Source of the DNA: Hyalangium gracile
GTDB taxonomy: Bacteria; Myxococcota; Myxococcia; Myxococcales; Myxococcaceae
DNA: 64,000 nucleotides
Assembly (NCBI RefSeq): GCF_020103725.1
Contig: NZ_JAHXBG010000002.1
Coordinates: forward strand, 186,001-250,000
Direction of reading: 5' to 3'
The translations under genes and the position numbers were made by a program. Within the stretch, counting starts at the first letter, position 1; each line of letters begins with the position of its first letter. Positions 8,533-39,354 of the stretch are shown here, piece after piece. Under the pieces are notes generated by a model. It was not told the origin of the DNA, searched no databases, and saw only the letters and a list, made by a program, of their open reading frames with translations.

Positions 8533-8636
8533 AAATTCATGGTGCCTGGAGACTGCCCGAAACGTCAAGGCCTTTGGTGGGTGCCTGTCATCGGGTGAGA
8601 GAATGCGGGAACGCCGCGAGTCCCCCGGGCGTCGGA

Positions 8637-9527
8637 ATGGCCATGTCGAGAGTCCTCACGCTGCTGCTGGGCCCCCTCGTGCTGCTGGGAAGTGTCCAGG
8701 CGGCCCGAGCGCAGGTCCCCTCGGTGCCCCACCCAGCGGGCGTGCTCTCCTGGCCCGCGCCGGGTGCTCCGCTGAAGGTGCAGCCGCTTCAGGCGCCCAA
8801 GGACTTCCGCAAGAAGCGCATCTACCTGGACGCGGGCCATGGCTACCGCGGCAACCGGGGCAACTCGTCCGTCACGTGCGAGGACGAGGCGGACTTCACG
8901 CTGCGCGTCGCCGAGGAGCTGGCGCGGCGGCTGGAGGCCACGGGGCGCTTCCGGGTGCGCCTCAGCCACAAGGCGGGGCAGGACGTGGCCTATCGCGCCC
9001 GCATCGCCGACGCGGAGGCCTGGAAGGCGGATGCGTTCGTGAGCCTCCACTCGGATGCGCGTGGCATGGCCACCTGGTGGGAGGGGGCTCCGGGCAGGCA
9101 GTGCCTGCGCCAGGACGCGACGCCCGGCTTCAGCGTGCTCTGGGCCGATGACACCTCCGAGCCCATGAAGGTTCGCCGCGTGACGCTGGCCCGGGCGCTG
9201 GCCCGGAACATGGCCCAGGCGGGCTTCCTGCCCTACGACGGCGTGGACTACGTCAACCTGTACGCCGGAGACCCCGAGCACCCGGGCGTCTTCGTGGACC
9301 GGCACGAGCAGGGTCAGCGCATCATGATGCTGCGCCGTCCGAAGGTCCCCTCGGTCATCATCGAGACGCACCACGCGCTCGACTTCGAGGAGGCCGCCCG
9401 CTGGAAGGAGGCCCGGACCCTGGAGTCCTTCTCCGCGGCGGTGGCGCAGGGCCTGGTGGACGCGCTCGCTGCTCCCACCTCCCCTGCCCCTCCCGTGGCG
9501 ACGACCGGAGTCGCCGCGCAGAAGTAA
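8637..9527 (+). CDS. Exported N-acetylmuramoyl-L-alanine amidase (amidase_3)
   Basis: This 296-aa zinc amidase should cleave the bond between N-acetylmuramic acid and L-Ala in peptidoglycan. A signal peptide (cut near AARA) precedes a short linker, then the amidase_3 fold: DAGHG (first zinc His, near residue 68), EDEADFT (zinc Glu), SLHSDARG (third zinc His) and the catalytic Glu in VIIETHHA near the C-terminus. There is no SPOR or LysM domain. I chose the ATG at 8637, which opens the signal peptide; ATG 8643 is also possible, and the RBS is weak. It is transcribed divergently from the heme oxygenase and converges on the FHA gene. Confidence 0.85.
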   Translation: MAMSRVLTLLLGPLVLLGSVQAARAQVPSVPHPAGVLSWPAPGAPLKVQPLQAPKDFRKKRIYLDAGHGYRGNRGNSSVTCEDEADFTLRVAEELARRLEATGRFRVRLSHKAGQDVAYRARIADAEAWKADAFVSLHSDARGMATWWEGAPGRQCLRQDATPGFSVLWADDTSEPMKVRRVTLARALARNMAQAGFLPYDGVDYVNLYAGDPEHPGVFVDRHEQGQRIMMLRRPKVPSVIIETHHALDFEEAARWKEARTLESFSAAVAQGLVDALAAPTSPAPPVATTGVAAQK

Positions 9528-9551
9528 GACGCACCTCCGCTCGCGCGCGCC

Positions 9552-10520
9552 TCACTTCTCCTTGGCGAGCTCATCCACCTGCTTCTGGAGCTCATCCGCC
9601 TCCTGGAAGAACTCGTCCATCGAGGAGGCCGGAACCAGCCGGAAGGAGGCCGGCAGCATCGAGCGCGGGAACTGCAGCGCCGTGCTGAACTCCTCGTTGC
9701 CCAGCAGCTCCTGCGCCTGGACCAACGTGCCGAAGCCCAGGACGATCGCGGTGACCATCGCGCCCAGCCGCCTCGACTCCCAGCGCGTCACGTAGCGCAG
9801 GTGCCAGAACAAGCCCCAGCCGACCAGCATCAGGTAGAGGCTCAGCCCGAGCAGCGGGTGCGTCGAGTCCCACGCCAGGGTGAAGCTCAGGATCATCAAG
9901 AAGCCCGGGATGCCGATGAACCCCAGCAGCACCAGGCTGCCGATGGCCCCGTGGGCGCGGAAGTGGAACTGCCGGCGCGCGATCCGGCTCGCGATGGACC
10001 AGCCACCGGCCCAGGCCAGCGTGAGCGCCGTCGGCAGCAGCATGGAGAACAGCAGCTCGCCCCAGTCCGGCTTGTCGTAGCTCGTCAGGTAGCTGGCCAG
10101 GAGCGAGGCCAGCATCGCCGCTCCCAGCGCGGCCAGGAAGGTCCGCGGACGCTCGAAGAGGCGCTGCCGGGGCCCCACGGGCGCCTCGGCCTCCAGCGCC
10201 TCCGGCACCGCGTAGCCACGCCCCCGGAAGCGCAGCACCGTGTCGCCCACCATCACCCGCGCGTCCTGTACGAGCACCATCTCGGCCAGCCGCGCCCACG
10301 GCTCCAGCCGGAAGGTGCCGTTGCGGCTGCCCAGATCGCGCACCACCAGCCCGCCCTCCTCGGTGCGCTCGATGCGCAGGTGCACCGGGGAGACCTTGGG
10401 ATCGTCCAGGATGACGTCGTTGGAGTAGCCGCGCCCCACCGTGACGGGGAAGCGCTCCAGCCGGTGGCGTGCGTGGACTCCGTCCCCCTCCAGCACCTCC
10501 AGGAAGATCACTTCGTCCAC
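9552..10520 (-). CDS. FHA-domain multipass membrane protein
   Basis: This is a 322-aa protein with an N-terminal FHA domain, residues about 10-100, with the canonical phosphothreonine-binding landmarks GRGYSNDV, VSPVHLRI and DLGSRNGTF. About five hydrophobic segments follow between residues 130 and 260, then an acidic C-terminal tail (EADELQKQVDELAKEK). The GTG start at 10520 lies inside the end of the upstream protease gene (13-nt overlap), so the two are cotranscribed and probably translationally coupled. A longer in-frame start at 10916 would lie inside the protease gene and add non-native sequence. It probably tethers a phosphorylated partner, such as a Ser/Thr kinase substrate, to the inner membrane; the partner is not visible here. 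Confidence 0.75.
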   Translation of the reverse strand: MDEVIFLEVLEGDGVHARHRLERFPVTVGRGYSNDVILDDPKVSPVHLRIERTEEGGLVVRDLGSRNGTFRLEPWARLAEMVLVQDARVMVGDTVLRFRGRGYAVPEALEAEAPVGPRQRLFERPRTFLAALGAAMLASLLASYLTSYDKPDWGELLFSMLLPTALTLAWAGGWSIASRIARRQFHFRAHGAIGSLVLLGFIGIPGFLMILSFTLAWDSTHPLLGLSLYLMLVGWGLFWHLRYVTRWESRRLGAMVTAIVLGFGTLVQAQELLGNEEFSTALQFPRSMLPASFRLVPASSMDEFFQEADELQKQVDELAKEK

Positions 10521-11866
10521 GACAGCGCCTCCAGATAGTGGCGGGCCAGCTTCTGGGCGTTCTCCCGCGAGAACCCCGCCAGGGTGAGGCTGGTGTCCAC
10601 CCCCTGGTTGTTCGTGGGCAGCGCGGCGGCGCGGAGCACCAGATCGTACAGCCCCGGGAACCGCTTGTAGGCGCGCAGGCACAGCGCGGCACGCAGCGTC
10701 AGCCCTCCCGTGCTCACGAACTCCGAGTGGCACCGGAAGTTCGTCACGTCCTCGCGGGTGGCCTCCACCACCGACGGATCCGACGCGAAGAAGGCGCTGT
10801 AGAGCGCCGAGAAGCGCAGCGCCCCCAGCTTCGTGGAGGACAGGTGCTGGTGGCTGTAGGCCACCGCCCCGGTGCGGTGCTCCGAGGACAGGAACACGTC
10901 CTCCTCGGAGGAGCACTGGTAGTTGGTCACCGTGTACTGCGCCTCCGGATCATGCGGCGTGTCGCCCCAGCACTTGAGGAACGGGAGCCACCGGCCGGGC
11001 ACCCGGTAGGGCCCCAGGGACTGCTGCGGCAGGGGCGTGGCCAGCATGCGCTCGGTGGTGCGCTGCTGGTGATCGAGCAGCTGCGTGCGCACCGAGGCCA
11101 GCAGCGCGGCGGGCTCGGAGTCCTCCGGCTTCGCCGCGAGCGCGCGCATCAGCAGCGCCCGGGCGTGCTCCACCGGCACGAGGAAGCCCACCTGGTTGCC
11201 CATGGTGGCCACGTTGACGCCCACCACGCGGCCCTCGCCGGTGAGCGTGGGGCCGCCGCTCATGCCCGGGTTGATCGCGCCGCTGAAGTGGACCCGATCG
11301 TACAGCGCGTCCTGGATGAGCCCGTTGTAGGTGCCCTCGACGATGGTGGTACCCAGATCGCGCGGGTTGCCCATGGCGAACAGGCGCGTGCCCTGCGGCG
11401 GCGGCTTCTCCAGCAGCTGGAAGAAGTCCGCCACCGGCTGCTCCATCCGGATGACGGCCAGATCGTCCACCACGTCCACGTCGAGCAGCTTCACCGGCAC
11501 CGGCTCCTGCCCGTCGCGCATCAGCTCGGCGGTGTAGTCCTCCGGGTGGACCACCAGATCCGACACGACGTGGTAGTTGGTGATCGCATGCCCGTCCGCC
11601 GTCACGAAGAAGGCCGAGCCAATCGAGGACTTGGTCCCCGAGCGGCGCTCGATGATGCGCACCTGGGCCACCCGGCGCTTGATGCGCTCGAACAGCTCGT
11701 GGGTGGCGGGCGGCAGCGTGGCCACGGGGAGCTGCGGCACGGCCGCCGGCTCATCCGAGCCTGGAGGGAGCGGCTCCTCCGGGCCCGGAGCGGGCGCGGG
11801 AGGCTGCGCGGGCACCGGAGCCTGGGTGAGGAGGGTGAGGACGAGAAGAGCAACCATGAGAGCCAC
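10508..11866 (-). CDS. Exported trypsin-like serine protease (S1C-like)
   Basis: This is a 452-aa protein with an N-terminal hydrophobic signal, a Pro-rich linker and a chymotrypsin-fold protease domain. The triad is visible: His in AITNYHVV (about 98), Asp in DVVDDLAVI (about 132) and Ser in NPGMSGGPT (about 203). This resembles HtrA/DegP proteases, but no PDZ domain follows. Instead there is a region of about 230 residues of unknown fold with several Cys. Two starts compete, GTG 11866 and ATG 11857, neither with a good RBS. It overlaps the FHA membrane-protein gene downstream, suggesting a protease plus phospho-signalling pair in the envelope. Confidence 0.75.
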   Translation of the reverse strand: MALMVALLVLTLLTQAPVPAQPPAPAPGPEEPLPPGSDEPAAVPQLPVATLPPATHELFERIKRRVAQVRIIERRSGTKSSIGSAFFVTADGHAITNYHVVSDLVVHPEDYTAELMRDGQEPVPVKLLDVDVVDDLAVIRMEQPVADFFQLLEKPPPQGTRLFAMGNPRDLGTTIVEGTYNGLIQDALYDRVHFSGAINPGMSGGPTLTGEGRVVGVNVATMGNQVGFLVPVEHARALLMRALAAKPEDSEPAALLASVRTQLLDHQQRTTERMLATPLPQQSLGPYRVPGRWLPFLKCWGDTPHDPEAQYTVTNYQCSSEEDVFLSSEHRTGAVAYSHQHLSSTKLGALRFSALYSAFFASDPSVVEATREDVTNFRCHSEFVSTGGLTLRAALCLRAYKRFPGLYDLVLRAAALPTNNQGVDTSLTLAGFSRENAQKLARHYLEALSWTK

Positions 11867-11931
11867 ACACTAATCGTGATCCGGGTCTTCTCCTGAGCTT
11901 GAATGCGCCCCCTGACTGGAGGATGCCACCC

Positions 11932-12723
11932 ATGAACCTGCTCCTGCCCTCTCTCGGTCTCTGTGCCCTCCTCGTCGCCCTGCCCGCCCAGGCGGCCCCC
12001 GAGGATCCCCTGGCGAAGGGCACGGAGAATCACGAGGCCCAGGTCCTCGGCTGGTCCGCGGACGGCAAGCGCTTCGTCGTGCGCCTCTACCAGCTCGACC
12101 CCTTCACTCCGCGTCCGGCCCTCGGTGAGAAACCGCTCTGCCCGGGCTACGTGAGCCACGAGGGCAACGCCTTCCAGGGCGGGCTCGTCTGGCTCGTGTA
12201 CGAGCGGAGCCGCCTGATCTCCGCCCTGCCCATCCTCGACGTGAAGACGTGCACCCCGGAGCAGGAGGCCCAGAAGCGCACCGAGGCCGCGAAGAAGAAG
12301 CTGGGCTCGCTGGGCATCCAGCTGGACGCCCCGGGCCGGGAGATCCTCGCCCACGTCAACACCTCCAGCATCGACGTGAGCCAGGGCGCCCAGGCGCCCT
12401 ACACGCTCGAGTACGAGGAGCGTGCCACCCCTCAGGCCTCGAAGGCCCCGTCCGAGATGCAGCGGGGCGCCCTGGAGCAGCAACTGTACGTCCGCAAGGG
12501 CGAGGCTCGGCAGAGGGTGCTCGGCCGCAAGTCCTCCTTCGAGTACTCGACGGCCATGGCCGGGTACCTGAGGACGGGCCTGGACCGGGTGTGGCTGTCG
12601 CCCTCGGGTTCAACCGTCGTCGTGCTGGCCTACGAGCGCGTGGGCAACATGAGCGGGGGCCGCAAGTCGCTGCGGCTGCTCGGCGTGCTGGGCTGGTCCG
12701 GCGCCGCGCTCAAGCCACTCTGA
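11932..12723 (+). CDS. Secreted protein of unknown function
   Basis: This is a 263-aa exported protein with a signal peptide MNLLLPSLGL..PAQA. The mature N-terminus ENHEAQVLGWSADGKRFVVRLY resembles secreted proteins of the DUF2259 kind, with a beta-propeller-like 'GWSxDGKRF' strand, but I cannot confirm that family. A charged helix (QEAQKRTEAAKKKLGSLGI) sits mid-protein, and the C-terminus repeats a 'LSPSGSTVVVLAYER' strand. I chose the ATG at 11932 because TGGAGG lies about 9 nt upstream; ATG 11923 abuts the RBS. The next gene starts 29 bp downstream, so the two probably form an operon. Confidence 0.65.
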   Translation: MNLLLPSLGLCALLVALPAQAAPEDPLAKGTENHEAQVLGWSADGKRFVVRLYQLDPFTPRPALGEKPLCPGYVSHEGNAFQGGLVWLVYERSRLISALPILDVKTCTPEQEAQKRTEAAKKKLGSLGIQLDAPGREILAHVNTSSIDVSQGAQAPYTLEYEERATPQASKAPSEMQRGALEQQLYVRKGEARQRVLGRKSSFEYSTAMAGYLRTGLDRVWLSPSGSTVVVLAYERVGNMSGGRKSLRLLGVLGWSGAALKPL

Positions 12724-12752
12724 GGCCTCACCTCAGCCGATGGAGATCGAAC

Positions 12753-13532
12753 ATGTCGCTGCCGAACTATGAGACGGTGGATGGCTCGACGCCGGAGATC
12801 ACCCCGCTGGGCGCGGAGCACGGGCGGCGGCTGCCGCTGTCCGCCTTCACCCTGCTGGCCGGGGGAGACGCCTTCGAGTCCCGCGGCGGCAAGCCTCCTG
12901 CGGACGGCCCCGCCCGCGCTCGCGCGTACCTCAAGGCCAAGGTGACGCTGGTGCCCCATGGCGCGCCAGCCGAGCAGCTCCAGCGCGTGGAGGCGGACAT
13001 CGTCCGGCAGCTCTCCGGGAACCTCCAGCTCATCGGGCGCATGGAGGCCTCCCGACCGGTGACGATCGATCTCATCCCTGCCGGTCAGCCCATGGCGAAG
13101 TACGGCTACCCGCGCTCCGTCTCGCCGCTGGCGGCGGGCCTGTTCTGGGATCACCCGGACTGGGAGCGGGCACGCATCGCGCTGCGCCAGGACAAGCTGG
13201 GCTCCGAGCCGCACCTGGTCTTCCACGAGATGGCGCACGCCATCCAGGGCCTGGCCTTCACCCAGGAGGAGAACGATCTCGTCTACCGCGTCATGCTGCG
13301 CACCTACCGCCAGCGCGCCATGGTGGACGAGGTGTTCGCGCTCTACAGCGAGCGCGAGTTCGTCCCCAACGTCACCTCGCACGATCTGCGCGCCCCCGGC
13401 GTCTACGGCATGGCGCGCCAGCGCTGGAACGAGGAGCACCTCTTCACCCGCTTCGTGCGCAACCTCTACTTCCCCTACAAGCCGCTGGCCGGCCCCGGCA
13501 CCGGCGGCATGGGCTCCTCCTTCGAGGGCTGA
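12753..13532 (+). CDS. Zinc metalloprotease with HExxH motif (ATLF-like)
   Basis: This is a 259-aa protein without a signal peptide. FHEMAHAIQG (about residue 156) is an HExxH zinc-protease motif, and VDEVFALYSE about 40 residues later offers a third glutamate ligand. The arrangement recalls the C-terminal catalytic domain of anthrax lethal factor (ATLF-like gluzincins). The N-terminal half (MEASRPVTIDLIPAGQPMAKYGYPRS) would be the usual alpha/beta lead-in. GGAG sits 8 nt before the ATG. It is probably cotranscribed with the preceding secreted-protein gene. The substrate is unknown, and lack of a signal peptide suggests cytoplasmic action or non-Sec export. Confidence 0.7.
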   Translation: MSLPNYETVDGSTPEITPLGAEHGRRLPLSAFTLLAGGDAFESRGGKPPADGPARARAYLKAKVTLVPHGAPAEQLQRVEADIVRQLSGNLQLIGRMEASRPVTIDLIPAGQPMAKYGYPRSVSPLAAGLFWDHPDWERARIALRQDKLGSEPHLVFHEMAHAIQGLAFTQEENDLVYRVMLRTYRQRAMVDEVFALYSEREFVPNVTSHDLRAPGVYGMARQRWNEEHLFTRFVRNLYFPYKPLAGPGTGGMGSSFEG

Positions 13533-13585
13533 TCCCACCGTCCGGAACCGGGCGGAGCGCACGGCGGCCGCCCGCCCGGCGCCCC

Positions 13586-13616
13586 TTGACAGTGTATCCG
13601 CTATAGCGGATATATA
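13586..13616 (+). promoter_or_regulatory. Promoter with 18-bp palindromic operator
   Basis: A consensus -35 TTGACA (13586-13591) is followed by TATATA (13611-13616), or GATATA at 13609 with 17-bp spacing. Between and over them lies a perfect 18-bp palindrome, TATCCGCTATAGCGGATA (13595-13612), and a further half-site ATCCGCT occurs at 13621. Binding there would block polymerase directly. The first long gene downstream is an XRE-cupin regulator, so autoregulation is likely. Confidence 0.75.
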
Positions 13617-13665
13617 GATCATCCGCTTTCACGGACGACTGTCCGGTAACAAAGAGGGATGTTCC

Positions 13666-13800
13666 ATGAGCGCTGCCGTGATCGACCTGCAGGACTTCCG
13701 CAAGAAGCGAGAGGCCGAGCAGTGTCAGATGGCGGCACGTCCCGCACCGGTCCGGCCTTGGCTGCCGGTATGGGTGTGGGTAATGGTCTGGCCCGCATGA
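13666..13800 (+). CDS. 44-aa protein coupled to the XRE-cupin regulator
   Basis: This is a 44-codon ORF with an excellent RBS (AGAGGG, 7 nt before the ATG). The N-terminus MSAAVIDLQDFRKKREAEQ is a charged amphipathic helix; the C-terminal 18 residues are Trp/Val/Pro-rich (RPWLPVWVWVMVWPA) and could insert in a membrane. Its TGA overlaps the ATG of the next gene (ATGA at 13797-13800), so translation is probably coupled. The alternative ATG at 13659, in the frame of the regulator, abuts the RBS with no spacer and is unlikely. It could be a real microprotein or a leader peptide; no family is recognised. Confidence 0.65.
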   Translation: MSAAVIDLQDFRKKREAEQCQMAARPAPVRPWLPVWVWVMVWPA

Positions 13801-14558
13801 AGTCCGTACGGGAGAACTCCGGGCGTAAGGGTCGAGGGGCTGCTCAGCGCCGAAAGGAGGCGGAGCCCGTCCCGAAGGCCGTGGCGCCCGTGCCTCCCCC
13901 TGAGAGCGAGCCACCAGACGATCCATCCCCCGCTGCCTCTCCTCCCAAGGGAGAAGAGGCATGGACGTACGAGGTGGCGCACCCGGATGCCGATCAGGAT
14001 CTCGCCCCCATCGTGGGGCGGAACCTGCGGCGGCTGCGCGTGCAGCGCGGGCTGTCGCTCGAGCGGATGTCCAAGGCCTCGGGCGTGAGCCGGGCCATGC
14101 TGGGGCAGATCGAGCTGGGGCAGAGCGCGCCCACCATCAACGTGCTGTGGAAGATCGCCCGAGCGCTGGATCTGCCGTTCTCGGCGCTGATCAGCACCAC
14201 GGGCGGCGCCGGGACACGGCTGATGCGCGCCTCGCAGGCCAAGCGGCTGACGTCGCACGACGGGAGCTTCGCGTCGCGAGCGCTCTTCCCGTTCGACGAG
14301 CCACGGCGGGTGGAGTTCTACGAGCTGCACCTCAAGGGCCACAGCGAGGAGAAGGCCGAGCCTCACCCGCCGGGCACGCTGGAGAACCTCATCGTCACGC
14401 GGGGCACCATCGAGATGGAGGTGGGCACCGAGCGCCACCTGCTGGCCACCGGTGACGCCATCCTCTTCGAGGCCGACAAGCCCCACGTCTACCGCAACGT
14501 GGGGCCCGAGGACGTCACCATGTACCTGGTGATGACGTACGCCGAAGAGGTGGGCTGA
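13797..14558 (+). CDS. XRE-family regulator with C-terminal cupin
   Basis: This is a 253-aa transcription regulator. After a basic, Pro-rich N-terminal stretch of about 65 residues comes an XRE helix-turn-helix (VGRNLRRLRVQRGLSLERMS, then SRAMLGQIELGQSAPTINVLWKIARAL), residues about 75-135. A cupin_2 fold follows in the C-terminal third (GTLENLIVTRG, GDAILFEADKPHVYRNVG), which usually binds a small ligand. The ATG at 13797 is chosen for its 4-base overlap with the stop of the 44-aa ORF. Such regulators often bind palindromes in their own promoter, and one exists at 13595-13612. The Met-rich protein gene converges on it only 7 bp downstream. Confidence 0.85.
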   Translation: MKSVRENSGRKGRGAAQRRKEAEPVPKAVAPVPPPESEPPDDPSPAASPPKGEEAWTYEVAHPDADQDLAPIVGRNLRRLRVQRGLSLERMSKASGVSRAMLGQIELGQSAPTINVLWKIARALDLPFSALISTTGGAGTRLMRASQAKRLTSHDGSFASRALFPFDEPRRVEFYELHLKGHSEEKAEPHPPGTLENLIVTRGTIEMEVGTERHLLATGDAILFEADKPHVYRNVGPEDVTMYLVMTYAEEVG

Positions 14559-14565
14559 GCCGGCG

Positions 14566-15018
14566 TTACTTCGCCATGCCCATCATCATGGGCATGCCGT
14601 TGCACATCATCATCACCGGCGCGCCCATGGCCATCATGGAGTTCATGGCGTCGCAGCACTCCTTCATCATCGCCATGTCCTGGCCGTCCATCGGCATCAT
14701 CTTGCACATCATGCCGTCCTTGCCCATCTCGCACGTCATGCGGGCCATCATCGGCGCCATCTGACGCATCATCATGGGCATCATCATCGGCATGCCCATG
14801 CCCATGGGCATCATCATGGGGTTCATGCCCATGCCCATGTTCATCATCGGGTTCATGGGCATCATGCCGCCCATCATCATGGGGTTCATGCCCATGCCCA
14901 TGTTCATCATCGGGTTCATGCCCATCATCGGCATGCCCATGTTCATCATCGGGTTCATGCCCATCATCGGCATCTGCTGCTGGGGCATGTTCATGGGCAT
15001 GGCGTTCGCGGTCATCAT
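14566..15018 (-). CDS. Extremely methionine-rich protein (46% Met)
   Basis: This is a 150-aa protein with 69 methionines by my count. Residues about 15-95 are built of imperfect units around MNPMMNMGMGMNP, with only M, G, N and P. The C-terminal third is less repetitive, adds charge and five cysteines (TCEM, MMCKM, ECCDAM, MMCNGM), and looks foldable. There is no signal peptide. Met clusters with Cys suggest soft-metal (Cu(I)/Ag(I)) binding or an oxidant sink, but no family is recognised. I chose ATG 15018 because GGAGGAG lies 12 nt upstream; ATG 15015 is equivalent. The same frame runs upstream to 15213, but that part has ordinary composition and overlaps two strong hairpins. The convergent neighbour is an XRE-cupin regulator. 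Confidence 0.7.
   Translation of the reverse strand: MMTANAMPMNMPQQQMPMMGMNPMMNMGMPMMGMNPMMNMGMGMNPMMMGGMMPMNPMMNMGMGMNPMMMPMGMGMPMMMPMMMRQMAPMMARMTCEMGKDGMMCKMMPMDGQDMAMMKECCDAMNSMMAMGAPVMMMCNGMPMMMGMAK
14810..14920 (-). repeat. Direct repeats coding the Met-rich units
   Basis: A perfect 48-bp direct repeat occupies 14810-14857 and 14873-14920, offset by 63 bp (21 codons). A 39-bp (13-codon) periodicity continues from 14902 to about 14975. All offsets are multiples of three, so length change keeps the frame. Recent slippage or unequal recombination is likely. Confidence 0.85.
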
Positions 15019-15064
15019 GGCTCGGCTCGGCTCCTCCCGGTCTCCCGGGACGTGAAGGAACGCC

Positions 15065-15104
15065 GTGGGGATAGGACATCCCCCACCGGGCCGCGACTGC
15101 CCGG
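15065..15104 (-). promoter_or_regulatory. Paired hairpins in leader of the Met-rich gene
   Basis: Two adjacent stems lie 47-86 nt upstream of the Met-rich start. One is GTGGGGAT (15065-15072) paired with ATCCCCCAC (15078-15086), with one extra C. The other is CCGGGC (15086-15091) paired with GCCCGG (15099-15104). They fall in the 256-bp gap between the upstream cyclic-nucleotide-binding gene and this gene, which holds no other gene. They could be a structured 5' leader, or a processing or termination site; no known riboswitch is recognised. Confidence 0.35.
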
Positions 15105-15274
15105 CGAGGCAACCCCGCGCTTTCCTCCGAAGCAACGGAGAGGTGGACCAGGGCAGCGGAGGTGTTGCCGGCTCGCGCGGATGGCCATCTGCTGGCGCGG
15201 ACAAGGACGTCACCGGCTGGACGGATGCCTGCTGTCAGGGAGCACACACGGCAGGCACCCGCCGCGCCGCGGGC

Positions 15275-15745
15275 TCAGTCCTCCGCGTCGGCTTCCTGGC
15301 CCTTGTGGGCCTGCTCCAGCAGGGCCCACAGGAGCTTCACGCCCAGGGCGGGCTGCTGCCGGGAGAGCTTCACGAGCGAGGCCCGGCTGAAGCGCAGCGC
15401 CTCGCCCTCGGAGACGGCCCGACAGGACAGGGGCGCGGGGACGGTGCTCACCAGCGCGCGATCTCCGAAGAAGGTGGACGGGCCCTGCTCGATGCTGCTG
15501 CCGTCCTTGGTGACCTCGACGCGGCCGGTGACGACCACCCAGAATGCGTCGAGGGGATCTCCCTGCTTGAGCAGCTGCTCCCCGTCCTGGAAGGGGTGCC
15601 GCTCACCGGCCTGGAACAGCTGCTTGAGCTCCGTGCCGTTCAGCTGCCCGAACAGGGAGGAGGCCTTCAGCGCCTCCATGCCCTCCATCATGTAGAGCGG
15701 ATTGACCGCCAGTTCCGTGCGCTCGTTGTCGTTGCTCTGTCCCAC
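15275..15745 (-). CDS. Cyclic-nucleotide-binding domain protein
   Basis: This is a 156-aa stand-alone cNMP-binding domain. The Crp/cNMP beta-roll signature is clear: LFQAGERHPFQDGEQLLKQGDPLDAFWVVVTGRVEV, then FFGDRALVS in place of the phosphate-binding cassette FGExAL, then helix RASLVKLSRQQPAL. There is no helix-turn-helix, kinase or channel domain, so it likely works as a sensor or partner protein. The conserved cassette Arg is not obvious, so nucleotide binding is uncertain. The start is GTG 15745, with GGAGGGG close upstream. The divergent patatin gene begins 179 bp away. Confidence 0.8.
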   Translation of the reverse strand: MGQSNDNERTELAVNPLYMMEGMEALKASSLFGQLNGTELKQLFQAGERHPFQDGEQLLKQGDPLDAFWVVVTGRVEVTKDGSSIEQGPSTFFGDRALVSTVPAPLSCRAVSEGEALRFSRASLVKLSRQQPALGVKLLWALLEQAHKGQEADAED

Positions 15746-15924
15746 ATGCCCCTCCCGGCTTGCGTCGTGCCCCAGACGCTAGAGGCAAAGCCTCGGGAGG
15801 GGCAACGGCTGGCGCCATCCCGCGCAGACTTTTCGTGGGCCTCGGCGGAAGCGCAAATCGTTCGGCCCCAGGCCCGCGCCGAACCCGCGCCCAGCCGGGC
15901 ACAGTGCTTGCTCCGAGGCTGGGA

Positions 15925-18900
15925 ATGTCTTCCCCAGAGCCTGTCTCGGCTGAGTCCCCCGCGACCCCTGAAGAAGCACCGCGGGACACCACGCCCGTGG
16001 AGCCCGGCGGTGATGATGCCCTGTGCTTCGCCGCGGGCATGACGGGAACCCCCTTCGGAGCGGGCGTCATCCACGCCTATCTCACCGCCGACAGGCCTCC
16101 TCCCCAGGCCGTCGCGGGCATCTCCACCGGAGCGCTGACCGCCGCCGTCATGTGGCTGAGCTACCGCGAGACGCAGGCGCACGCGCGCTTCGCCAGGGGC
16201 GAGCCTCGGCGCTGGTCCCGTCTGAGGCAGTACGTGACGCTGCTCAGCGAGGACCCCTACCGCGTCCTCTGGAACGCCCTGCCGAACCAGTCCGACTTCT
16301 TCATCGATCTGCCTCCCCTGGAGGATCGCACGGTGCCGAAGCGGCTGCGGCAGGACGAGCGCCGGGCCGCGCGAAGCCGCCACCACCATGTGCTGCTCGG
16401 CCGCTGGCTGGCGGGGCTGCCGCTGCGCGGGGATCACCTGGCGGACCTGATGGAGGGCTACGTCCACCTGAAGGAGCAGAAGGCGCCGTCACGGCTCGCG
16501 CAGCTCCGCTGGTCGCTGCGCTGCATCCGGGACGTGCTGCCCGTCCTCTTCTACGCGGCCTTCCACCCCATGCGCTTCCCGGCGGACGCGACGCTGTGGA
16601 CCTCCTCGGCGGAGGCCTCAGGCCCCCCACCCTCCCCGGCCGACGCGAGCCCACCCGCTCCCCGCCGGCCGCCCCTCATCGGCTGGCTGCCCTATCTGGC
16701 GATCTCGCTCGTGGTGGCGCTGATCGCCGCGGGGCTGTTCGGCGTGGCCTCGGGGGTGCTCCTGGGCGTGGCGGCGGGGGCCTTCCACCAGCCCTGGGCC
16801 TCGCCCGGACTCGCGGGCGGGCTGCTCATCGGGGGCACGTCCCTGCTGGGGATCCTGCTCCTGGGCTCCACCCTGCTGCTGCGCGGGCTCGCCTTCGGCC
16901 CCTCCTCGAAGGAGGAGTCCGGGCCCAGCCCCTTCCTCAACTCCTTCCTCGAGGGCTCCAACCTCACCCGGAGCCTGCTCGACGACTTCCACCTGCGCCT
17001 GGCGCTGCACCGCCTCTTCACCGAGCCGGAGCGGGAGGACGAGGTGCCGGACGTGCAGCTCACGCACGCCCCGCGGCCGCTGCTCGTGGCGGCGCCGCTC
17101 CAGACGCTGAAGCGCAGCGCCACCTCCCGCTCGCTGGTCGCCCAGCAGCTCTGGGCGACGCAGGGCCCCATCGTCGATGCCTTGCGCGCGGCGCTCGCCA
17201 GCCCGCCGCTCTTCGCGCCGGTTCGCCTCGAGTCCGATGATCTCAAGGCGCACTGGCTGGACAAGGGCGCCACCCCGGACAACGGCGGCCCGCTCGATCT
17301 GGTGGATGGCTCGGTGATCCGGCAGAACCCGCTGCCGGCGCTGCTCAAGTTCATCCAGCGCAACCCGGAGACGCGCTCCCCCCTCTCGACGAGCAGCGAG
17401 CGGCCCGGCATCCATGTCGTCTACTCCGTCCCGATCGAGTCGGCGGACGGCACCAACGCGAGGCCCGTCGACGATCAGACGGACAACATCGTGGACGTGG
17501 GGCTCCTCAGCCTGCGCCTCGCGCAGCGGCTGGACACGCGCCTGGAGGTGGGGCTCACCAACTTCATCAGCAACCTGGAGACGCTCATCCCGCCCTCGAG
17601 CGAGCCCTCGCGCGGGACCGTCCCGGTGTTCGTGGACGAGATCGCCCCGGCGCCCCAGCACATCACCTTCGAGAATCCCCTGAGCCCGAGCAAGCCGGAG
17701 GTCCTCCAGGCCATCGCGGGGGGATGCCAGCGCACCCTGGAGACGCTCTACTCGCGGGAGCTCCGCGAGCAGGTGGGCGCCGCCTCCGCCATCCCCTGCA
17801 ATGCCTTCCTCGGCACGCTGAAGACCCGGCGCGACCTGGGCAGCGTGGATCCGGCGGCCCCGGGCCTCCCGGAGGTCTGCGGGCGCTGCACGCGGATGCT
17901 GCGGCCACGCGATCGCACGGAGCCGCTCGGCATCCCGGAGCCGGTGACACCGAGCGTGGCGGCTGCCGCCCCGAGCCCCCAGCCTCCCGCTCCTCCCGCG
18001 GCGCTCGTCCCCGCGGCCGAGTCCTCGGGCGAGTGGAAGCCCCGGATCGTCTTCGTGGCCAGCGGCGGCGTGTTCCGGGGGGCCTTCCACATCGGCATGG
18101 CGGCGGCGCTCACGGAGGTGCGCATCAAGCCCGACATCATCGTCGGGGCGTCGGTGGGCTCGCTCATCGGCGCCGCGCTGGCCAAGATGTTCTACAACCA
18201 GCACAAGGGCGATGACGCCGCCGTCACCCGGCTTCTGGGGGACATGGTGGGCCTGTTCCTGCGCGTGGACGAGCGCGTGGCGCTCACCCAGCCGCTGCTG
18301 TCCACGGTGCGCGAGGTGAAGAGCCGCCTGGCGCGGGTGAAGCTGTCGCCCGCCCGGATCACCCACCTGGTGCGGCAGGGCATCCGCTCGGACCTGGGGT
18401 ACACCATCCTCGGGGCTCCGCCGCAGCTCATCGAGGCCATCTCCAACGTCTTCCTGCTGCCGCACCAGGACACGCGGGACATCGCCGCGGAGTTCCTGGC
18501 CGGGCACGTCACGGAGTCGGTGGACCTGCTGGCGCGCAAGGTGCGCAAGGAGACGCTCGTTCGCCTGGGCATCTCCCACGCGGTGATGGGCGCGTCGCTG
18601 CTGGAGCGAGCGGTGCGTGACATCCTCTCCGGGCAGGGCTGGCCCATCGCCCTGGATCAGCGCCAGCCCTTCCTCGAGGCGGGCATCGAGTTCTACTGCA
18701 CGGCCACGGACCTCAGCACCTACGAGTCCCTCATCCTGGGGACCGAGCAGAAGTACGCGGGCCGGCCCTATGACTTCGTGGAGGCGTGCCTGGCCTCGAG
18801 CGCCTTCCCGAGCGTCTTCGCGCCGCGCCGGGAGAGCGATGTCTTCCCGGGCTCGGGACGGCGCGAGGTGCGGCTGGCGGATGGCGGGCTGTTCGACAAC

Positions 18901-19644
18901 CTGCCCTTCTCCCACGGCATCAACGTCCTGGAGCGGAAGCAGCGCGCCTGGCGCCAGGCGCACCCCGAGACGACTCCCCTGGCGTTCCTCGAGAAGCGCT
19001 CGAAGGCCCGGCACCTCTTCCTGGTGGGGGCTCTCAACGTCAACCCCGAGGCCAGCTCCTTCCCTGAGCATGGCAAGGACCACCTGCTGGCCACCTCGAG
19101 CCGCGCCGGCTCGCTCAAGGACAACGTGAAGATCCGCGCCTTCGAGGGCGCGAGCCTGCGCGTGCGTGGGCAGGTGGGGCGGCTGCTGAAGGCTCCACCC
19201 CGCGAGCTCTCGGCGGGCCAGCAGGACTTCATCGACGAGATCGTGGATCCGCTCGTGCTGCCGGTGTTCCCGGCGAGTCACGCGCACCTGAACGGCACCT
19301 TCGCGTTCTCCCGCTCGATGGGCCTGGAAGGGGATCGCGTCAGGCGCTCCATCGCCGATGGCTGCTTCCAGACGCTGCGGCAGGTCGCCAGTCCCCAGAA
19401 TGTCCTCGATGACGGGACCCAGGCCAACCTGGCGGATCTCCAGCGCACCGGGCGCATCCCCGAGATCGTCCGCAAGCCCCAGCCGCGCCCGGCCGGAGCG
19501 GAGTCCGCCTCGCTCTGTCCCTTCTTCAAGAAGGGACACGAGGACATCGTCTGTCCGTTCGCCCGGAAGGCGGCGGGCACGGACCTGTCCCAGGTGATGG
19601 GGATCTGCAGGAAGGACCCGCAGCACCGGGCGGCGCTCGGCTGA
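15925..19644 (+). CDS. Tandem patatin-like phospholipase with membrane segments
   Basis: This is a 1239-aa protein with two patatin domains. Domain 1 (about 30-510) has the nucleophile elbow GISTG near residue 70 and the dyad Asp in VDGSVIRQN near residue 460, and is interrupted near residues 250-320 by two or three hydrophobic segments (WLPYLAISLVVALIAAGLFG and following). A CGRC Cys pair and Pro/Ala linker follow. Domain 2 (about 700-1040) is more canonical: the oxyanion loop GGVFRGAFHIG, elbow GASVG and dyad LADGGLFDNLPF. The C-terminal tail has further Cys (CPFFKKGHEDIVCPF). It probably hydrolyses membrane phospholipids or acyl esters. I chose ATG 15925 (GAGG just upstream); an in-frame start at 15760 would add atypical sequence. 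No lipase chaperone is adjacent. Confidence 0.8.
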   Translation: MSSPEPVSAESPATPEEAPRDTTPVEPGGDDALCFAAGMTGTPFGAGVIHAYLTADRPPPQAVAGISTGALTAAVMWLSYRETQAHARFARGEPRRWSRLRQYVTLLSEDPYRVLWNALPNQSDFFIDLPPLEDRTVPKRLRQDERRAARSRHHHVLLGRWLAGLPLRGDHLADLMEGYVHLKEQKAPSRLAQLRWSLRCIRDVLPVLFYAAFHPMRFPADATLWTSSAEASGPPPSPADASPPAPRRPPLIGWLPYLAISLVVALIAAGLFGVASGVLLGVAAGAFHQPWASPGLAGGLLIGGTSLLGILLLGSTLLLRGLAFGPSSKEESGPSPFLNSFLEGSNLTRSLLDDFHLRLALHRLFTEPEREDEVPDVQLTHAPRPLLVAAPLQTLKRSATSRSLVAQQLWATQGPIVDALRAALASPPLFAPVRLESDDLKAHWLDKGATPDNGGPLDLVDGSVIRQNPLPALLKFIQRNPETRSPLSTSSERPGIHVVYSVPIESADGTNARPVDDQTDNIVDVGLLSLRLAQRLDTRLEVGLTNFISNLETLIPPSSEPSRGTVPVFVDEIAPAPQHITFENPLSPSKPEVLQAIAGGCQRTLETLYSRELREQVGAASAIPCNAFLGTLKTRRDLGSVDPAAPGLPEVCGRCTRMLRPRDRTEPLGIPEPVTPSVAAAAPSPQPPAPPAALVPAAESSGEWKPRIVFVASGGVFRGAFHIGMAAALTEVRIKPDIIVGASVGSLIGAALAKMFYNQHKGDDAAVTRLLGDMVGLFLRVDERVALTQPLLSTVREVKSRLARVKLSPARITHLVRQGIRSDLGYTILGAPPQLIEAISNVFLLPHQDTRDIAAEFLAGHVTESVDLLARKVRKETLVRLGISHAVMGASLLERAVRDILSGQGWPIALDQRQPFLEAGIEFYCTATDLSTYESLILGTEQKYAGRPYDFVEACLASSAFPSVFAPRRESDVFPGSGRREVRLADGGLFDNLPFSHGINVLERKQRAWRQAHPETTPLAFLEKRSKARHLFLVGALNVNPEASSFPEHGKDHLLATSSRAGSLKDNVKIRAFEGASLRVRGQVGRLLKAPPRELSAGQQDFIDEIVDPLVLPVFPASHAHLNGTFAFSRSMGLEGDRVRRSIADGCFQTLRQVASPQNVLDDGTQANLADLQRTGRIPEIVRKPQPRPAGAESASLCPFFKKGHEDIVCPFARKAAGTDLSQVMGICRKDPQHRAALG

Positions 19645-19701
19645 GGCCGCGTCGCGTCGCGAGCCTCGCACCGAGCGCCCATGGGAAGGGCCCGCGAGTG
19701 C

Positions 19702-20106
19702 TCATCCCACGGCACGCAGGATCGGGAGGATCCGGCGGAGGCCCCGGCTCGCGCTGCGCAGCCCCGGTGTTCGGTGCCGCGCCCGGAGCACCGTGCCGAG
19801 CACCAGCAGTCCGACGGCCGCGACGATCTGCCCGCCAAGAATGATGCGGTTCACGTCGATGGCGGGCCTCCACTCGACATCGCCCTGCCGGATGACGAAG
19901 GCGCCCACGGGCCGGGCCGACAGGCCGAACCCGCTGCCTGCTCCACTCCCCTGCTCCGAGGGCCCCTTGCCCTCGCCTCCTCCCGCGCCCCCGCTCACCC
20001 GGGCAGCCGGGATGATGATGGCATCGCCCTGCAGGACGGGCTCACCAAACACGCGCCTGGGGTTGATCTCTCCGCGGGTCTTGTCGAGCAGCTCGCTCAC
20101 ATCCAT
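19702..20106 (-). CDS. GerW/YtfJ-like spore protein family member
   Basis: This is a 134-aa protein. The pattern FGEPVLQGDAIIIPAARVSGGAGGGEGK, then GSGAGSGFGLSARPVGAFVI, then a hydrophobic segment (RIILGGQIVAAVGLLVLGTVL), matches the YtfJ/GerW family. That family is named for Bacillus spore germination but also occurs outside Firmicutes. The Gly-rich loop is intact. The basic C-terminal tail (RARHRTPGLRSASRGLRR) is not part of the family core. In a sporulating myxobacterium a spore-envelope role is conceivable, but that is inference. It converges on the patatin gene (57-bp gap); the 278 bp upstream, to the divergent kinase, contain no visible gene. Confidence 0.75.
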   Translation of the reverse strand: MDVSELLDKTRGEINPRRVFGEPVLQGDAIIIPAARVSGGAGGGEGKGPSEQGSGAGSGFGLSARPVGAFVIRQGDVEWRPAIDVNRIILGGQIVAAVGLLVLGTVLRARHRTPGLRSASRGLRRILPILRAVG

Positions 20107-20384
20107 GGCGTCCTCCCCTCGTGGGATTCACTGCCGCACAGGTATGCACGCGCGCGGCTCCAGGGAGGAAGGAGGGAGCCAGGCACTTCCTCCGATGGAT
20201 GCGCGCTCCGACAGGCGAGCAGCGAGCCCGGAGGGCTCCTGGGGTTTTCCCCTGGTGCTCCCAGGGTTCCCCTTTGGCCAGGATGCGGCAGGCGAGCGGG
20301 TGCAGGCTCCTCGTCGGGTGCTATCAGCGGGCTGGGGAGAAGAGATTCACCCCAGCCACTCGTTCCGAACAGGGAGGCCTCACC

Positions 20385-22337
20385 ATGCCTCATGTCCCTC
20401 CCGACATCCCTGGACAGCTCGCGTCGAAGGGCCCGATGGGCTCGCTCGAGACGTCTCGCGCCTGGCTTCTGCGGCGGCTCGACGGGCTGCTCTCGGAGTC
20501 GCTCCGGCGAGCACCCCTCTCGGCGCTGACTCGCGCCCGGGTGCTGGCCGCCGCCACCTGTGTCCTGCTCCTGCTCAATGTGCTGTACACCCTCTCGCTC
20601 CAGCCGCCTTCGGACGAGTGGATCTGGAGAGCCCCAGGAGGTTTCGGCTCCCTGGGAATGCTCGGGGCGCTGCTGCTGCTGCGTCGCGTCAGGTCGACCA
20701 CCGCTCCGGCGCTCCTGCTCTGCGCGAGCATGCTGTGGGGGATTGGCTTCACCCTGGTCCTCTATTGGAACTCCTACATCAGCACGCACGCCACGCTCAT
20801 GCTGCTGCCCGCGTTCGGCGTGTATCTGCTGGGCCCGCGCAAGGGCCTGCTCCTGACGCTGCTGACCATCCTGCTGATGGGCATCGTGGCGCCGTTCCTC
20901 CACCTCCACTTCGGGCTCACCGCCCCGCCAACGAGCCCCGCGTTCCTGAGGATGCTGCACGTCGCGTCCTCGATGGCCTTGCTGAGCATCTGGCTGCTGG
21001 GCGCGCTGCACAGCACCGCGCAGAGCGGGGCGCAGGAAGCGCTGGAGCGGACCCTGAAGGAGCTCCGCGACACCGAGCGCAAGCTCACCAGCCTCTTCGA
21101 GAACACGGACGACATGCTGTGCTCGCTGGACGCGGAGGGGCGCCTGCTCATCGCCAACACGGCCATGAAGCAGGCCTTCGCCCAGCGCTTCGGCCAGGAG
21201 CCCGTCATCGGCCAGCGGCTCTTCGCGCCCGCGCCCCCCGCCACCCAGGAGCTGTGGGCCGCGCGCTTCCGACAGGTGCTCCAGGGCGAGCGCCTGAAGC
21301 TGGAGGTGGAGTATCGCGAGGGAGAGACGCGGGTCGTGCTGGAGACGTCGCTGAGCCCCATCCGCGGAGAGGACGGCGTCCCCCAGGGCATCGTCCTGCT
21401 CGGGAGGGACATCACCGCGCGGAAGGAGGCGGAGACCCGGCTGGGCGAGATGCACCGCACGCTGGTGGATGTCTCCCGCCAGGCCGGCATGGCGGAGATC
21501 GCCACCGGGGTGCTCCACAACGTGGGCAACACGCTCAACAGCGTGAACATCTCGGCCCATCTCATCTCGGACGGGCTGCGCAAGCTGCGGCTGTCGGGCA
21601 TCGGCCGGACCACCAGGCTGCTCCATGAGCACTCCCGCGAGCTGGGGCCTTTCTTCACCCAGGATCCACGAGGCCAGCAGCTGCTGCCCTACCTCCAGGC
21701 CCTCTCGCGCGAGCTGCGCGAGGAGCAGGAGGCGCTCATGAAGGAGACGGTCTCGCTCACGGAGGGCATCGATCACATCAAGGCCATCATCAACATGCAG
21801 CAGAAGCATGCGCGGACCGTCGGGGCCATGGAGACGGTGTCGGTGCCCCAGCTCATCGACGAGGCGCTGCGCCTGCACGCCGTCTCGTTCGAGCGAATGA
21901 GCATCCGCATCGAGCGCGACTTCGCCGCCGTGCCGCTCATCGTCACGGATCGCCACAGGCTGCTGCAGATCCTGCTGAACCTGCTGAACAACGCGCGGCA
22001 GGCGCTGGCGGGCAGTGAGCCGAAGGACAAGCGCCTGCGCCTGCGGGTGGGGCTGGCCGAGGCAGGCGGGCAGCTCTTCATCGAGGTGAGCGACAACGGC
22101 CAGGGCATTGCCCCGGAGCACCTGCCGCGCCTGTTCACCCAGGGCTTCACCACGAAGAAGGAGGGGCACGGGTTCGGCCTGCACGTCAGCGCCCTGTCCG
22201 CGGCGGAGATGAACGGGCGGCTCACCTGCGCCAGCCCCGGGGTTGGACAGGGCGCTACTTTCACCCTGATGCTGCCGCTCGCGCCGGCGGAGGCCCCGGC
22301 GGAGAGCTCCGGGGGGATGTCGGCATCGATCCGTTGA
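20385..22337 (+). CDS. Membrane PAS sensor histidine kinase
   Basis: This is a 650-aa sensor kinase. Six or so hydrophobic segments occupy residues about 55-210, followed by a coiled-coil linker, a PAS domain (LTSLFENTDDMLCSLDAEGRL to IVLLGRDITARKEAE, about 225-350), and a kinase core. The phosphoacceptor is His378 in an atypical H-box (GVLHNVGNTLNSVN). The N-box LNLLNNARQAL, G1 DNGQGI, and GFTTKKEGHGFGLH of the ATP lid follow, so ATP binding looks intact. There is no receiver domain and no response regulator next door, making it an orphan kinase, common in myxobacteria. GGAGG lies 7 nt before ATG 20385. The next gene starts 80 bp downstream on the same strand and may be cotranscribed. Confidence 0.9.
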   Translation: MPHVPPDIPGQLASKGPMGSLETSRAWLLRRLDGLLSESLRRAPLSALTRARVLAAATCVLLLLNVLYTLSLQPPSDEWIWRAPGGFGSLGMLGALLLLRRVRSTTAPALLLCASMLWGIGFTLVLYWNSYISTHATLMLLPAFGVYLLGPRKGLLLTLLTILLMGIVAPFLHLHFGLTAPPTSPAFLRMLHVASSMALLSIWLLGALHSTAQSGAQEALERTLKELRDTERKLTSLFENTDDMLCSLDAEGRLLIANTAMKQAFAQRFGQEPVIGQRLFAPAPPATQELWAARFRQVLQGERLKLEVEYREGETRVVLETSLSPIRGEDGVPQGIVLLGRDITARKEAETRLGEMHRTLVDVSRQAGMAEIATGVLHNVGNTLNSVNISAHLISDGLRKLRLSGIGRTTRLLHEHSRELGPFFTQDPRGQQLLPYLQALSRELREEQEALMKETVSLTEGIDHIKAIINMQQKHARTVGAMETVSVPQLIDEALRLHAVSFERMSIRIERDFAAVPLIVTDRHRLLQILLNLLNNARQALAGSEPKDKRLRLRVGLAEAGGQLFIEVSDNGQGIAPEHLPRLFTQGFTTKKEGHGFGLHVSALSAAEMNGRLTCASPGVGQGATFTLMLPLAPAEAPAESSGGMSASIR

Positions 22338-38346: not shown

Positions 38347-39354
38347 ATGGCATTTCGTAGTGGATCTAGTGGCCGTGCATGCGCACTGGTCGCGGTGGCG
38401 TTCCTGGCGCTCCTGCCGGGGATGAGCGCCGCGGCGACTCCGCGCCTTCTTCTCACCTCCTCGCATCCGGAGGCCTCCACCGGGAGGCTGTACGTGTATG
38501 GCGAGGGCTTTGGTACGACGGCTCCCTCGGCGACCTTCGCGGGTCTGCCCGTCACGGTCATCGCGAATACGGATACGACCGCGACGCTCTCCATCCCCTA
38601 CGGTCTGCTCAACAATCCGGGGACCTATCTCGTCACGCTGTCCCGGGGACCGAATCCGGAGGACAACTCCACGCTGGGCGTGGCGGTGGGCCAGCAAGGC
38701 CCCAAGGGCGACAAGGGTGACACGGGGCCGGCCGGTCCTCAGGGCATCCAGGGCCCACAGGGCCCCAAGGGCGACACGGGCGCCCGAGGAGCACGAGGTC
38801 TCACGGGCGACACGGGGCCGCAGGGCCCGCAGGGCCCCAAGGGCGACACAGGCGCCACGGGTCCGGCCGGTCCTCAAGGCCTCCAGGGTCCTGCGGGTCC
38901 CAAGGGCGACACGGGAGACACAGGGCCCATCGGTCCTCAGGGCATCAAGGGTGACAAGGGCGACACAGGCGCCACGGGTCCGGCCGGTCCTCAAGGCCTC
39001 CAGGGCATCCAGGGTCCCAAGGGTGACACGGGGGCCACAGGGCCCATCGGTCCTCAGGGCGACAAGGGCGACAAGGGCGACAAGGGCGACAAGGGCGATC
39101 CCGGCCCGGTGGGTCCCGCGGCTCCGTCGAGCGCCAATTGCGCCTTGCAGGAGTCGACCGGGTATAGCCAGGAAGGCGCCGTCTTCGGCCCAACCCCTGC
39201 GACTGGAGGTCCCGTCACCGTTCCGGCGATGGTGCACAATCAAGTGATTGTCATTCGATGGTCCGTCACCCGGGGAGGAAGCGCCAAGTTCCTCGTGCAG
39301 TGCCGCAACGGCACCTCGTATGTGCTGGATGTCTACGACTACCGGAACTACTAG
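38347..39354 (+). CDS. Secreted collagen-like protein
   Basis: This is a 335-aa protein. After a signal peptide (cut near MSAAA) comes an IPT/TIG-like Ig domain (about 32-112; [22 protein letters not shown]). Next are 48 uninterrupted Gly-X-Y triplets (about 115-258) and a C-terminal domain of about 75 residues with two Cys (NCALQES, VQCRNG). The triplets are rich in [12 protein letters not shown] and GPA, the charge-stabilised type found in bacterial collagens, which form trimers without hydroxyproline; the terminal domain may set trimer register. I chose ATG 38347 (GGGGAA just upstream); a GTG at 38320 is possible. It is probably surface-exposed. A hairpin follows the gene. Confidence 0.85.

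Follow-up and report, generated by a model that had tools for sequence, protein, structure and literature searches.

A methionine-rich protein family linked to a SutR-like regulator: a possible methionine reserve within a sulfur regulon of Myxococcota

The stretch of myxobacterial DNA analysed here, 64,000 nucleotides long and hereafter called the window, comes from a genome of 11.7 Mb and carries a short gene for an exceptionally methionine-rich (Met-rich) protein. Comparative analysis delineated a family of such genes, their linkage to a gene for an XRE-cupin regulator, operators shared by the two promoters, sulfur genes as further operator targets in Myxococcota, and the co-occurrence of a microprotein. 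We propose, at a probability of roughly one half, that the Met-rich protein is a cytosolic, sulfur-regulated methionine reserve that belongs to a sulfur regulon under SutR-like control. We infer the storage role from the composition of the protein together with the regulon. The genes and protein segments of the locus are as follows (window coordinates):

14566..15018, minus strand: gene of the Met-rich protein, ATG to stop, 150 amino acids plus stop codon
14746..15018, minus strand: N-terminal repeat tail, residues 1-91, with 47 Met in repeats of M, G, N and P
14569..14745, minus strand: C-terminal Cys/Met domain, residues 92-150, predicted beta-beta-alpha-beta-beta
13797..14558, plus strand: SutR-like regulator, 253 amino acids, with XRE HTH (HTH_3) and cupin (Cupin_2) domains
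13666..13800, plus strand: microprotein MSAAVIDLQDFRKKREAEQCQMAARPAPVRPWLPVWVWVMVWPA, 44 amino acids, whose TGA overlaps the ATG of the regulator (ATGA)

Translation of the Met-rich gene yields 150 residues, 69 of which are Met (46%), as the initial annotation had claimed, along with 17 Pro, 17 Gly, 12 Asn, 5 Cys and no His; the 74 sulfur atoms make up 14.1% of the mass. The tandem units of M, G, N and P that had been described, with lengths in multiples of three, were recovered by Tandem Repeats Finder at 14779-14973, where the periods (18, 21, 30, 33, 39 and 63) are all divisible by three. A Cys-containing C-terminal domain had also been proposed; all five Cys fall within the last 59 residues, and homologues share this domain. 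The suggested lack of a signal peptide agrees with our inspection of the N-terminus, in which no export signal is visible by eye, and the protein looks cytosolic. At the place of the claimed ribosome-binding site, GGAGGAG is present; its distance from the first ATG is slightly far in the window (12 nt) and 8 nt in another locus, L003. Longer open reading frames exist in other frames of 14566-15018. Homologues with the same C-terminal Cys domain were found in Myxococcota, Pseudomonas, Massilia and alphaproteobacteria. Judged by sequence comparison, the Met-rich frame is a real gene, a chance frame being ruled out by orthologues that keep the reading frame, a similar start and the shared domain. 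Repeats also occur elsewhere in the window, as Gly-x-y collagen-like repeats recognised by eye at 38748-39098 (tandem units of 9-117 bp), as long arrays of 144-bp tandem repeats at 39957-42391, by eye possibly a beta-propeller (Kelch-like) protein, and as 150-bp tandem repeats at 47094-48683, by eye possibly RCC1-like.

A protein search recovered orthologues in 13 of 59 genomes, including the window's own, and all six congeners were positive; the Met-rich protein of one congener (G006) is the same as that of a Hyalangium versicolor locus (L018). Because low complexity can mislead searches, a profile was built from the C-terminal domain alone, and it was positive in 30 of 195 Myxococcota genomes, with a single copy in each. 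A scan of genome contigs delivered 34 Met-rich loci, partly from the same genomes as these 30, with L016 and L018 left out as duplicates of L003 and L004. Pseudomonas contributed 20 of the loci, and the others came from myxobacteria, a Massilia MAG, Zavarzinia, Tianweitania, Pararhizobium and MAGs. Four alphaproteobacterial genomes carry the gene. Since only one of 289 sampled alphaproteobacterial genomes was positive, namely the seed itself, the family is rare in that group at large. A tblastn search of plasmids with a Pseudomonas domain gave no match, but low-complexity filtering may have concealed some. Note that the genomes compared are related, so that all such counts overstate independence.

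In an alignment of 17 sequences, C105, P109, M129 and P134 (window numbering) are invariant, and the remaining Cys positions of the domain vary between lineages, with Met or another residue in place of Cys. The proteins of two MAGs (G158 and G161) have Met at the C105 position and Cys two residues on. Values of dN/dS for the domain ranged from 0.05 to 0.52 against the 13 orthologues compared, with only about 20 synonymous sites in each comparison. AlphaFold2, run with 40 homologues, agrees with the original view of a Met-rich tail followed by a distinct domain: residues 1-77 are predicted to be disordered (pLDDT mostly below 50), and residues 92-146 to form a compact beta-beta-alpha-beta-beta domain, with mean pLDDT per ten residues of 83-88 over 91-140 and 73 for the last ten. 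The domain is duplicated in Pseudomonas, and the model of the Pseudomonas homologue contains two beta-beta-alpha-beta-beta domains (pTM 0.68). Searches of Pfam, NCBIfam and PDB sequences with the Met-rich protein revealed no relative up to an E value of 1 and no match to known copper or metal storage families, and a Pyxidicoccus orthologue gave no Pfam or NCBIfam match. Structural comparison returned no PDB match with weight (best Foldseek E values of 1.2 for the window model and 0.1 for the Pseudomonas model), and the best VIA-align Z scores were 3.3 and 4.6, respectively. The family is undescribed among the literature matches listed, which come from an open-access library without most subscription journals.

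Clustering of called genes showed the regulator to be the sole neighbour conserved across lineages and phyla. Identified by its HTH motif, it is convergent with the Met-rich gene and lies at most 1.7 kb from its stop in 43 of 47 loci, a linkage that spans Myxococcota, Pseudomonas and alphaproteobacteria; in the window the two stops are 7 bp apart. The four exceptions are a Massilia locus (L040), L045, whose contig stops about 0.8 kb on, L047, where the regulator is 3.1 kb further on, and L089, where it is found elsewhere in the same genome. In L029 and L044, genes of 180 amino acids, which by eye look mutually unrelated, separate the regulator from the Met-rich gene. Within the window's family, the regulator is present in all 28 Met-rich genomes of the domain-profile set, and none of the 51 regulator-less genomes carries the Met-rich gene. 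The MAGs G158 and G161 have the Met-rich gene with no neighbouring regulator, microprotein or operator.

SutR (YdcN) is an XRE-cupin regulator of sulfur utilisation in E. coli. Both HTH_3 (6e-15) and Cupin_2 (2e-12) exceed their gathering scores in the window regulator, and family searches return HTH and cupin domains only. The alignment with SutR extends through HTH and cupin (36% identity over 183 amino acids, 122 bits), and that with PuuR is a 69-residue match confined to the HTH (43 bits). By these scores the regulator is SutR-like, its similarity to SutR exceeding that to PuuR, the two proteins that were compared. The best solved relative is 1Y9Q (E value 3e-25), which the available part of the paper by Trouillon et al. 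describes with D-methionine in the cupin pocket (PMC7901475). Nine other genes of the window between 8574 and 22334 encode amidase, trypsin-like, cNMP-binding, patatin, YtfJ or histidine-kinase domains or match nothing, and no Msr, copper, peroxidase or sulfur gene was found among them. The gene with the cNMP domain (15275-15745, minus strand) was rejected as a conserved neighbour, its cluster holding two loci only. Its product has weak NCBIfam similarity to a family 2B encapsulin shell protein (30 bits, cut-off 400), which apparently runs through the cNMP domain.

The second companion of the Met-rich gene is the microprotein encoded upstream of the regulator. Its relatives in myxobacteria have a VIDL/VINL-x3-R-x2-R head and a PVWVWVxVWP-like tail. 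Those in alphaproteobacteria are looser, a variant without the tail occurs in 17 of 20 Pseudomonas loci, and Massilia has a doubtful relative recognised by eye. The window microprotein gave no match in Pfam or NCBIfam, and one relative gave a sub-threshold match (E 0.04). In two myxobacterial families the microprotein is present in 29 of 31 Met-rich genomes (27 of the 30 loci L062-L091, G102, where it is beside the displaced regulator, and G104) and missing in G158 and G161. Sixteen genomes of the window's family possess the regulator without the Met-rich gene, and none of them carries the microprotein at the best regulator locus, second regulator-like copies in G107 and G031 being left out; in G007 (L257), where the HTH motif was unrecognised, the microprotein was judged by the VW test alone. 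With G104 counted as Met-rich-positive, the tallies are 29 and 16 rather than 28 and 17. In that genome an insertion-element-like stretch with inverted ends (2569-3861 of L263) lies between the regulator stop and the apparent 3' end of the Met-rich gene, and the end of the contig cuts this apparent gene. At L089, and perhaps in Massilia, the microprotein stays by the Met-rich gene though the regulator is absent there. From the co-occurrence and L089, the evolutionary partner of the microprotein therefore seems to be the Met-rich protein rather than the regulator.

The promoters of the Met-rich gene and of the regulator have in common a candidate operator, TCCG-N6-CGGA, which is described from the present analysis. 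Its occurrences at the locus, and the elements around them, are:

13586..13614, plus strand: sigma70-like promoter TTGACA-N17-GATATA, recognised by eye
13597..13610, no strand assigned: operator TCCGCTATAGCGGA, between the -35 and -10 elements of the promoter of microprotein and regulator
13622..13635, no strand assigned: second operator TCCGCTTTCACGGA, 25 bp downstream of TCCGCTATAGCGGA
15121..15139, minus strand: operator dyad with conserved tail TCCGTTGCTTCGGAGGAAA, 121 nt before the ATG of the Met-rich gene
15121..15201, minus strand: array of four TCCG repeats starting at 15201, 15181, 15160 and 15139, spaced by 20, 21 and 21 bp

Exact dyads were counted across 17 myxobacterial loci. The regulator promoters (5,950 bp) contain 30, with all 17 loci represented, the Met-rich promoters (2,720 bp) contain 13, in nine loci, and the remaining 233,847 bp contain 12. 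A pair of sites separated by about 25 bp is usual in the regulator promoter, and the Met-rich promoter has the upstream TCCG array without a clear -35 element. In 12 aligned regions upstream of Met-rich genes, the first three TCCG repeats and the sequence GAGGAAA are invariant and the fourth repeat has one variable base; in the window's array, only the last TCCG forms a full exact dyad. That an exact dyad occurs in only nine of the 17 Met-rich promoters is a point against the regulon reading. In two genomes of another family (f5), a dyad is found at -120 or -121 of the Met-rich genes. A fixed -10 box downstream of GGAGGAAA was considered and rejected, the best candidates being located mostly at 34-52 nt and others at 19 nt and elsewhere. 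Since this distance is inconstant, the -10 candidates lead us to claim neither sigma type nor sign of regulation. A Pseudomonas operator was likewise rejected: enumeration of dyads revealed none that was present in both promoters of more than three of the 20 loci. Forward matches to a guessed palindrome in Pseudomonas numbered 12, 2 and 3 versus 10, 2 and 3 for the control, and one match that was inspected had an ABC-transporter ORF and ORFs of unclear nature next to it.

Sites of this kind also lead to genes of sulfur metabolism. In four genomes a looser pattern gave 39 forward matches versus 30 for a control, so that most of these are chance matches. Seven stretches were fetched. The five with a TATA core adjoin cysH/cysD clusters (four) or a metNIQ-like cluster (one), and the two with other cores adjoin no sulfur gene; the sulfur link emerged on picking TATA-core sites (5 of 5 versus 0 of 2). 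The strict TATA-core form, TCCGYTATARCGGA, is found in 28 of the 96 genomes of the family and its reversed control in a single one, the motif having been derived partly from the genomes tested (four of the 96). The strict form is present in 27 of 45 regulator-positive and 1 of 51 regulator-negative genomes. The p-values of the Fisher tests applied should not be taken as probabilities, as these tests regard related genomes as independent and the motif came in part from the genomes tested. The strict sites number 51, with six at regulator genes and 45 in 42 other stretches. A sulfur gene starts beside the site in 18 of these stretches (sulfate ABC transporter in 8, cysH/cysD in 5, cysK in 2 and metNIQ in 3). 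The other 24 hold porin-like genes (10), apparent beta-carbonic anhydrases (5), another outer-membrane-like family (2) and various or unidentified genes (7), with members of a group assigned from BLAST clusters or, in several cases, by inspection. Many strict sites lie between two divergent genes, and the target may therefore be the other gene. Representatives of the sulfate-binding protein, CysT, CysK, CysH and CysD pass the NCBIfam cut-offs; the MetN representative, though short of its cut-off, contains the NIL domain. No copper, silver, Msr or peroxidase gene was seen among the operator targets identified, seven of the 42 stretches being those with various or unidentified genes.

The gene family most commonly found beside the strict operator is the porin-like one, recognised by eye (L145, L147, L154, L155, L158, L163, L164, L166, L170 and L171). 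Its L145 member has no Pfam match, and we regard the family as a candidate sulfur-related outer-membrane channel. The apparent beta-carbonic anhydrase genes, also recognised by eye (L149, L165, L168, L177 and L179), start 13-68 bp from a strict operator.

In the two f5 genomes the looser pattern marks 39 places, with forward and reverse matches of 11/12 and 15/13 versus 3/6 and 1/7 for the control. Eleven of these places were fetched, chosen for near-palindromic cores, and six precede cysK (two, covering both genomes), a related PLP enzyme, sbp, a cysG-like gene or the regulator. In Zavarzinia operator-like sites were no commoner than in the control (5/6 versus 10/8). Searches for sulfur targets in Pseudomonas and Zavarzinia, where the pair of Met-rich gene and regulator occurs, thus did no better than controls, and the computation supports membership of the Met-rich gene in a sulfur regulon in Myxococcota only.

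The arrangement of the sites suggests how the regulon may work. The SutR-like regulator would bind TCCG-N6-CGGA dyads, and its cupin would probably sense methionine or a related sulfur metabolite. Because the dyad is situated between or over the -35 and -10 elements (by eye, at the regulator and at metN, where it contains the -10 box behind TTGACA) or 13-57 bp from the start codons of sulfur genes (cysD in L110; cysH in L152; cysK in L150, L238 and L242; sbp in L151 and L246), binding should repress these genes. Farther dyads also exist, for example one at 266 bp from cysK in L174. The fourfold TCCG array, with repeats about two helical turns apart and some 120-185 nt from the start, means that binding could activate the Met-rich gene. 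Opposite control is proposed because a protein with 46% Met that is induced by sulfur shortage makes little sense. Activation rather than repression at this promoter is accordingly what we infer, and the XRE-cupins studied in P. aeruginosa, all of them repressors in the available part of that paper (PMC7901475), count against it. When sulfur amino acids are plentiful, the acquisition genes would be switched off and the surplus would be laid down as protein containing 14% sulfur; under sulfur shortage, production of the reserve would stop and the reserve would be degraded. The C-terminal domain could provide a folded, perhaps self-assembling, core, and the microprotein, encoded with the regulator, could be a partner of the Met-rich protein in assembly or mobilisation.

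The initial annotation had offered Cu(I) or Ag(I) binding, oxidant quenching or phase separation, guesses from composition. The genomic surroundings point elsewhere, the shared operators and the SutR-like regulator grouping the gene with those for sulfur uptake and assimilation. Oxidant or metal binding by the Met-rich protein is chemically plausible; in view of a regulon that indicates sulfur, we keep functions in copper, silver or oxidant handling as rivals only. It is unlikely, in our estimate, that the protein serves as an oxidant sink. Here oxidant or thiol stress would release a repressor from all targets, Cys and Met supply would be co-induced with a sacrificial Met-rich protein, and MsrA/B would recycle the sulfoxides. 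The density of thioethers is indeed extreme, and such a repressor would be in keeping with the P. aeruginosa regulators just mentioned (PMC7901475). Furthermore, HOCl-responsive HypT of E. coli induces genes of cysteine, methionine and sulfur biosynthesis, as the available part of the report has it (PMC7464077), a precedent by which coupling of an oxidant response to sulfur genes exists. However, neither the operator targets identified nor the nine window neighbours include an Msr or peroxidase gene, family searches with the regulator give nothing beyond its HTH and cupin, and the upstream TCCG array is unlike the usual layout of a repressor site.

A cytosolic buffer of Cu(I) or Ag(I), in which Met clusters and the Cys/Met domain bind soft metals, is more doubtful still. 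Spacings of the MXM and MXXM type have a role in copper binding and run throughout the protein, and the Cys positions of the domain swap with Met between lineages, as soft-metal ligands may; this exchange at several positions would suit soft-metal binding as well. Against this, the operator targets identified comprise many sulfur genes and no copper gene, and the nine window neighbours include no copper gene either, a weak argument given that the neighbours at most other loci are unannotated. The regulator is an XRE-cupin, and we know of no copper-sensor family of that type. We give least credence to a condensate scaffold, by which the disordered tail would drive a phase separation that responds to Met oxidation or to sulfur status and acts in regulation rather than storage. 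The predicted disorder of residues 1-77 and a partner rich in Trp, Pro and Val would suit it, as would the low-complexity domains rich in Met of ataxin-2 and Pab1 in yeast, for which the available part of one source discusses redox responses or a relation to condensates (PMC8394241). However, the Met-rich protein has no fused signal-carrying domain, and condensation could be the mere physical state of a reserve.

The methionine reserve that we favour resembles several known systems in part. SutR shares the HTH and cupin architecture and has the role in sulfur utilisation that the candidate targets suggest for the window regulator; unlike the window gene, E. coli sutR is flanked by ydcO and rlhA and has neither a Met-rich gene nor a microprotein beside it. 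In plants, seed storage proteins rich in Met (zeins, 2S albumins) keep sulfur in the form of protein-bound Met; they are eukaryotic and secretory, and we know of no SutR-like regulator among them. The window protein would share this logic of storage, and sequence comparison, made through Pfam, gave no match. The periplasmic MrpX-type peptide said to have been described by Melnyk in 2015 reportedly scavenges hypochlorite together with Msr and is associated with YedYZ and an ECF sigma factor. The window protein is similarly short, bacterial and very Met-rich; unlike MrpX, it has no export signal visible by eye, its partner is an XRE-cupin, and no Msr gene adjoins it among the nine genes scanned (8574-22334). 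The P. aeruginosa XRE-cupins (PsdR, PauR, ErfA and others) have the same architecture as the window regulator, local targets and palindromic sites; they repress specific metabolic genes and the available part of the paper mentions no Met-rich protein (PMC7901475), whereas the regulon described here reaches distant sulfur operons. The Met-rich copper proteins CopA, PcoC and CopC, periplasmic according to the available part of a further source (PMC10092412), have Met clusters like those of the window protein, which could bind copper; no family match connects them.

Somewhat more tentatively than the reserve itself, we suggest that the three genes form a hitherto undescribed module of Met-sensing SutR-like regulator, Trp-rich microprotein and Met-rich protein, whose scattered presence in different phyla looks like the result of transfer. 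This module might constitute a dedicated, regulated and mobilisable bank of methionine, in which the microprotein, made in sulfur shortage once the regulator releases its sites, hands the reserve to proteolysis, or else assembles it. The known bacterial reserves include those of carbon, nitrogen, phosphate, iron and elemental sulfur. To our knowledge, no protein reserve of methionine is known from bacteria, and none appeared among the open-access literature matches listed. If true, the methionine bank would be a sulfur counterpart of cyanophycin or of seed storage proteins, and it would account for a cell making so sulfur-dense a cytosolic protein. The SutR-like family would gain a methionine-linked circuit, an unannotated microprotein family would be added, and there may be a genetically encoded means to enrich biomass in methionine. 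Should the oxidant or metal reading be true instead, the Met-rich family would still be new and wired to sulfur supply.
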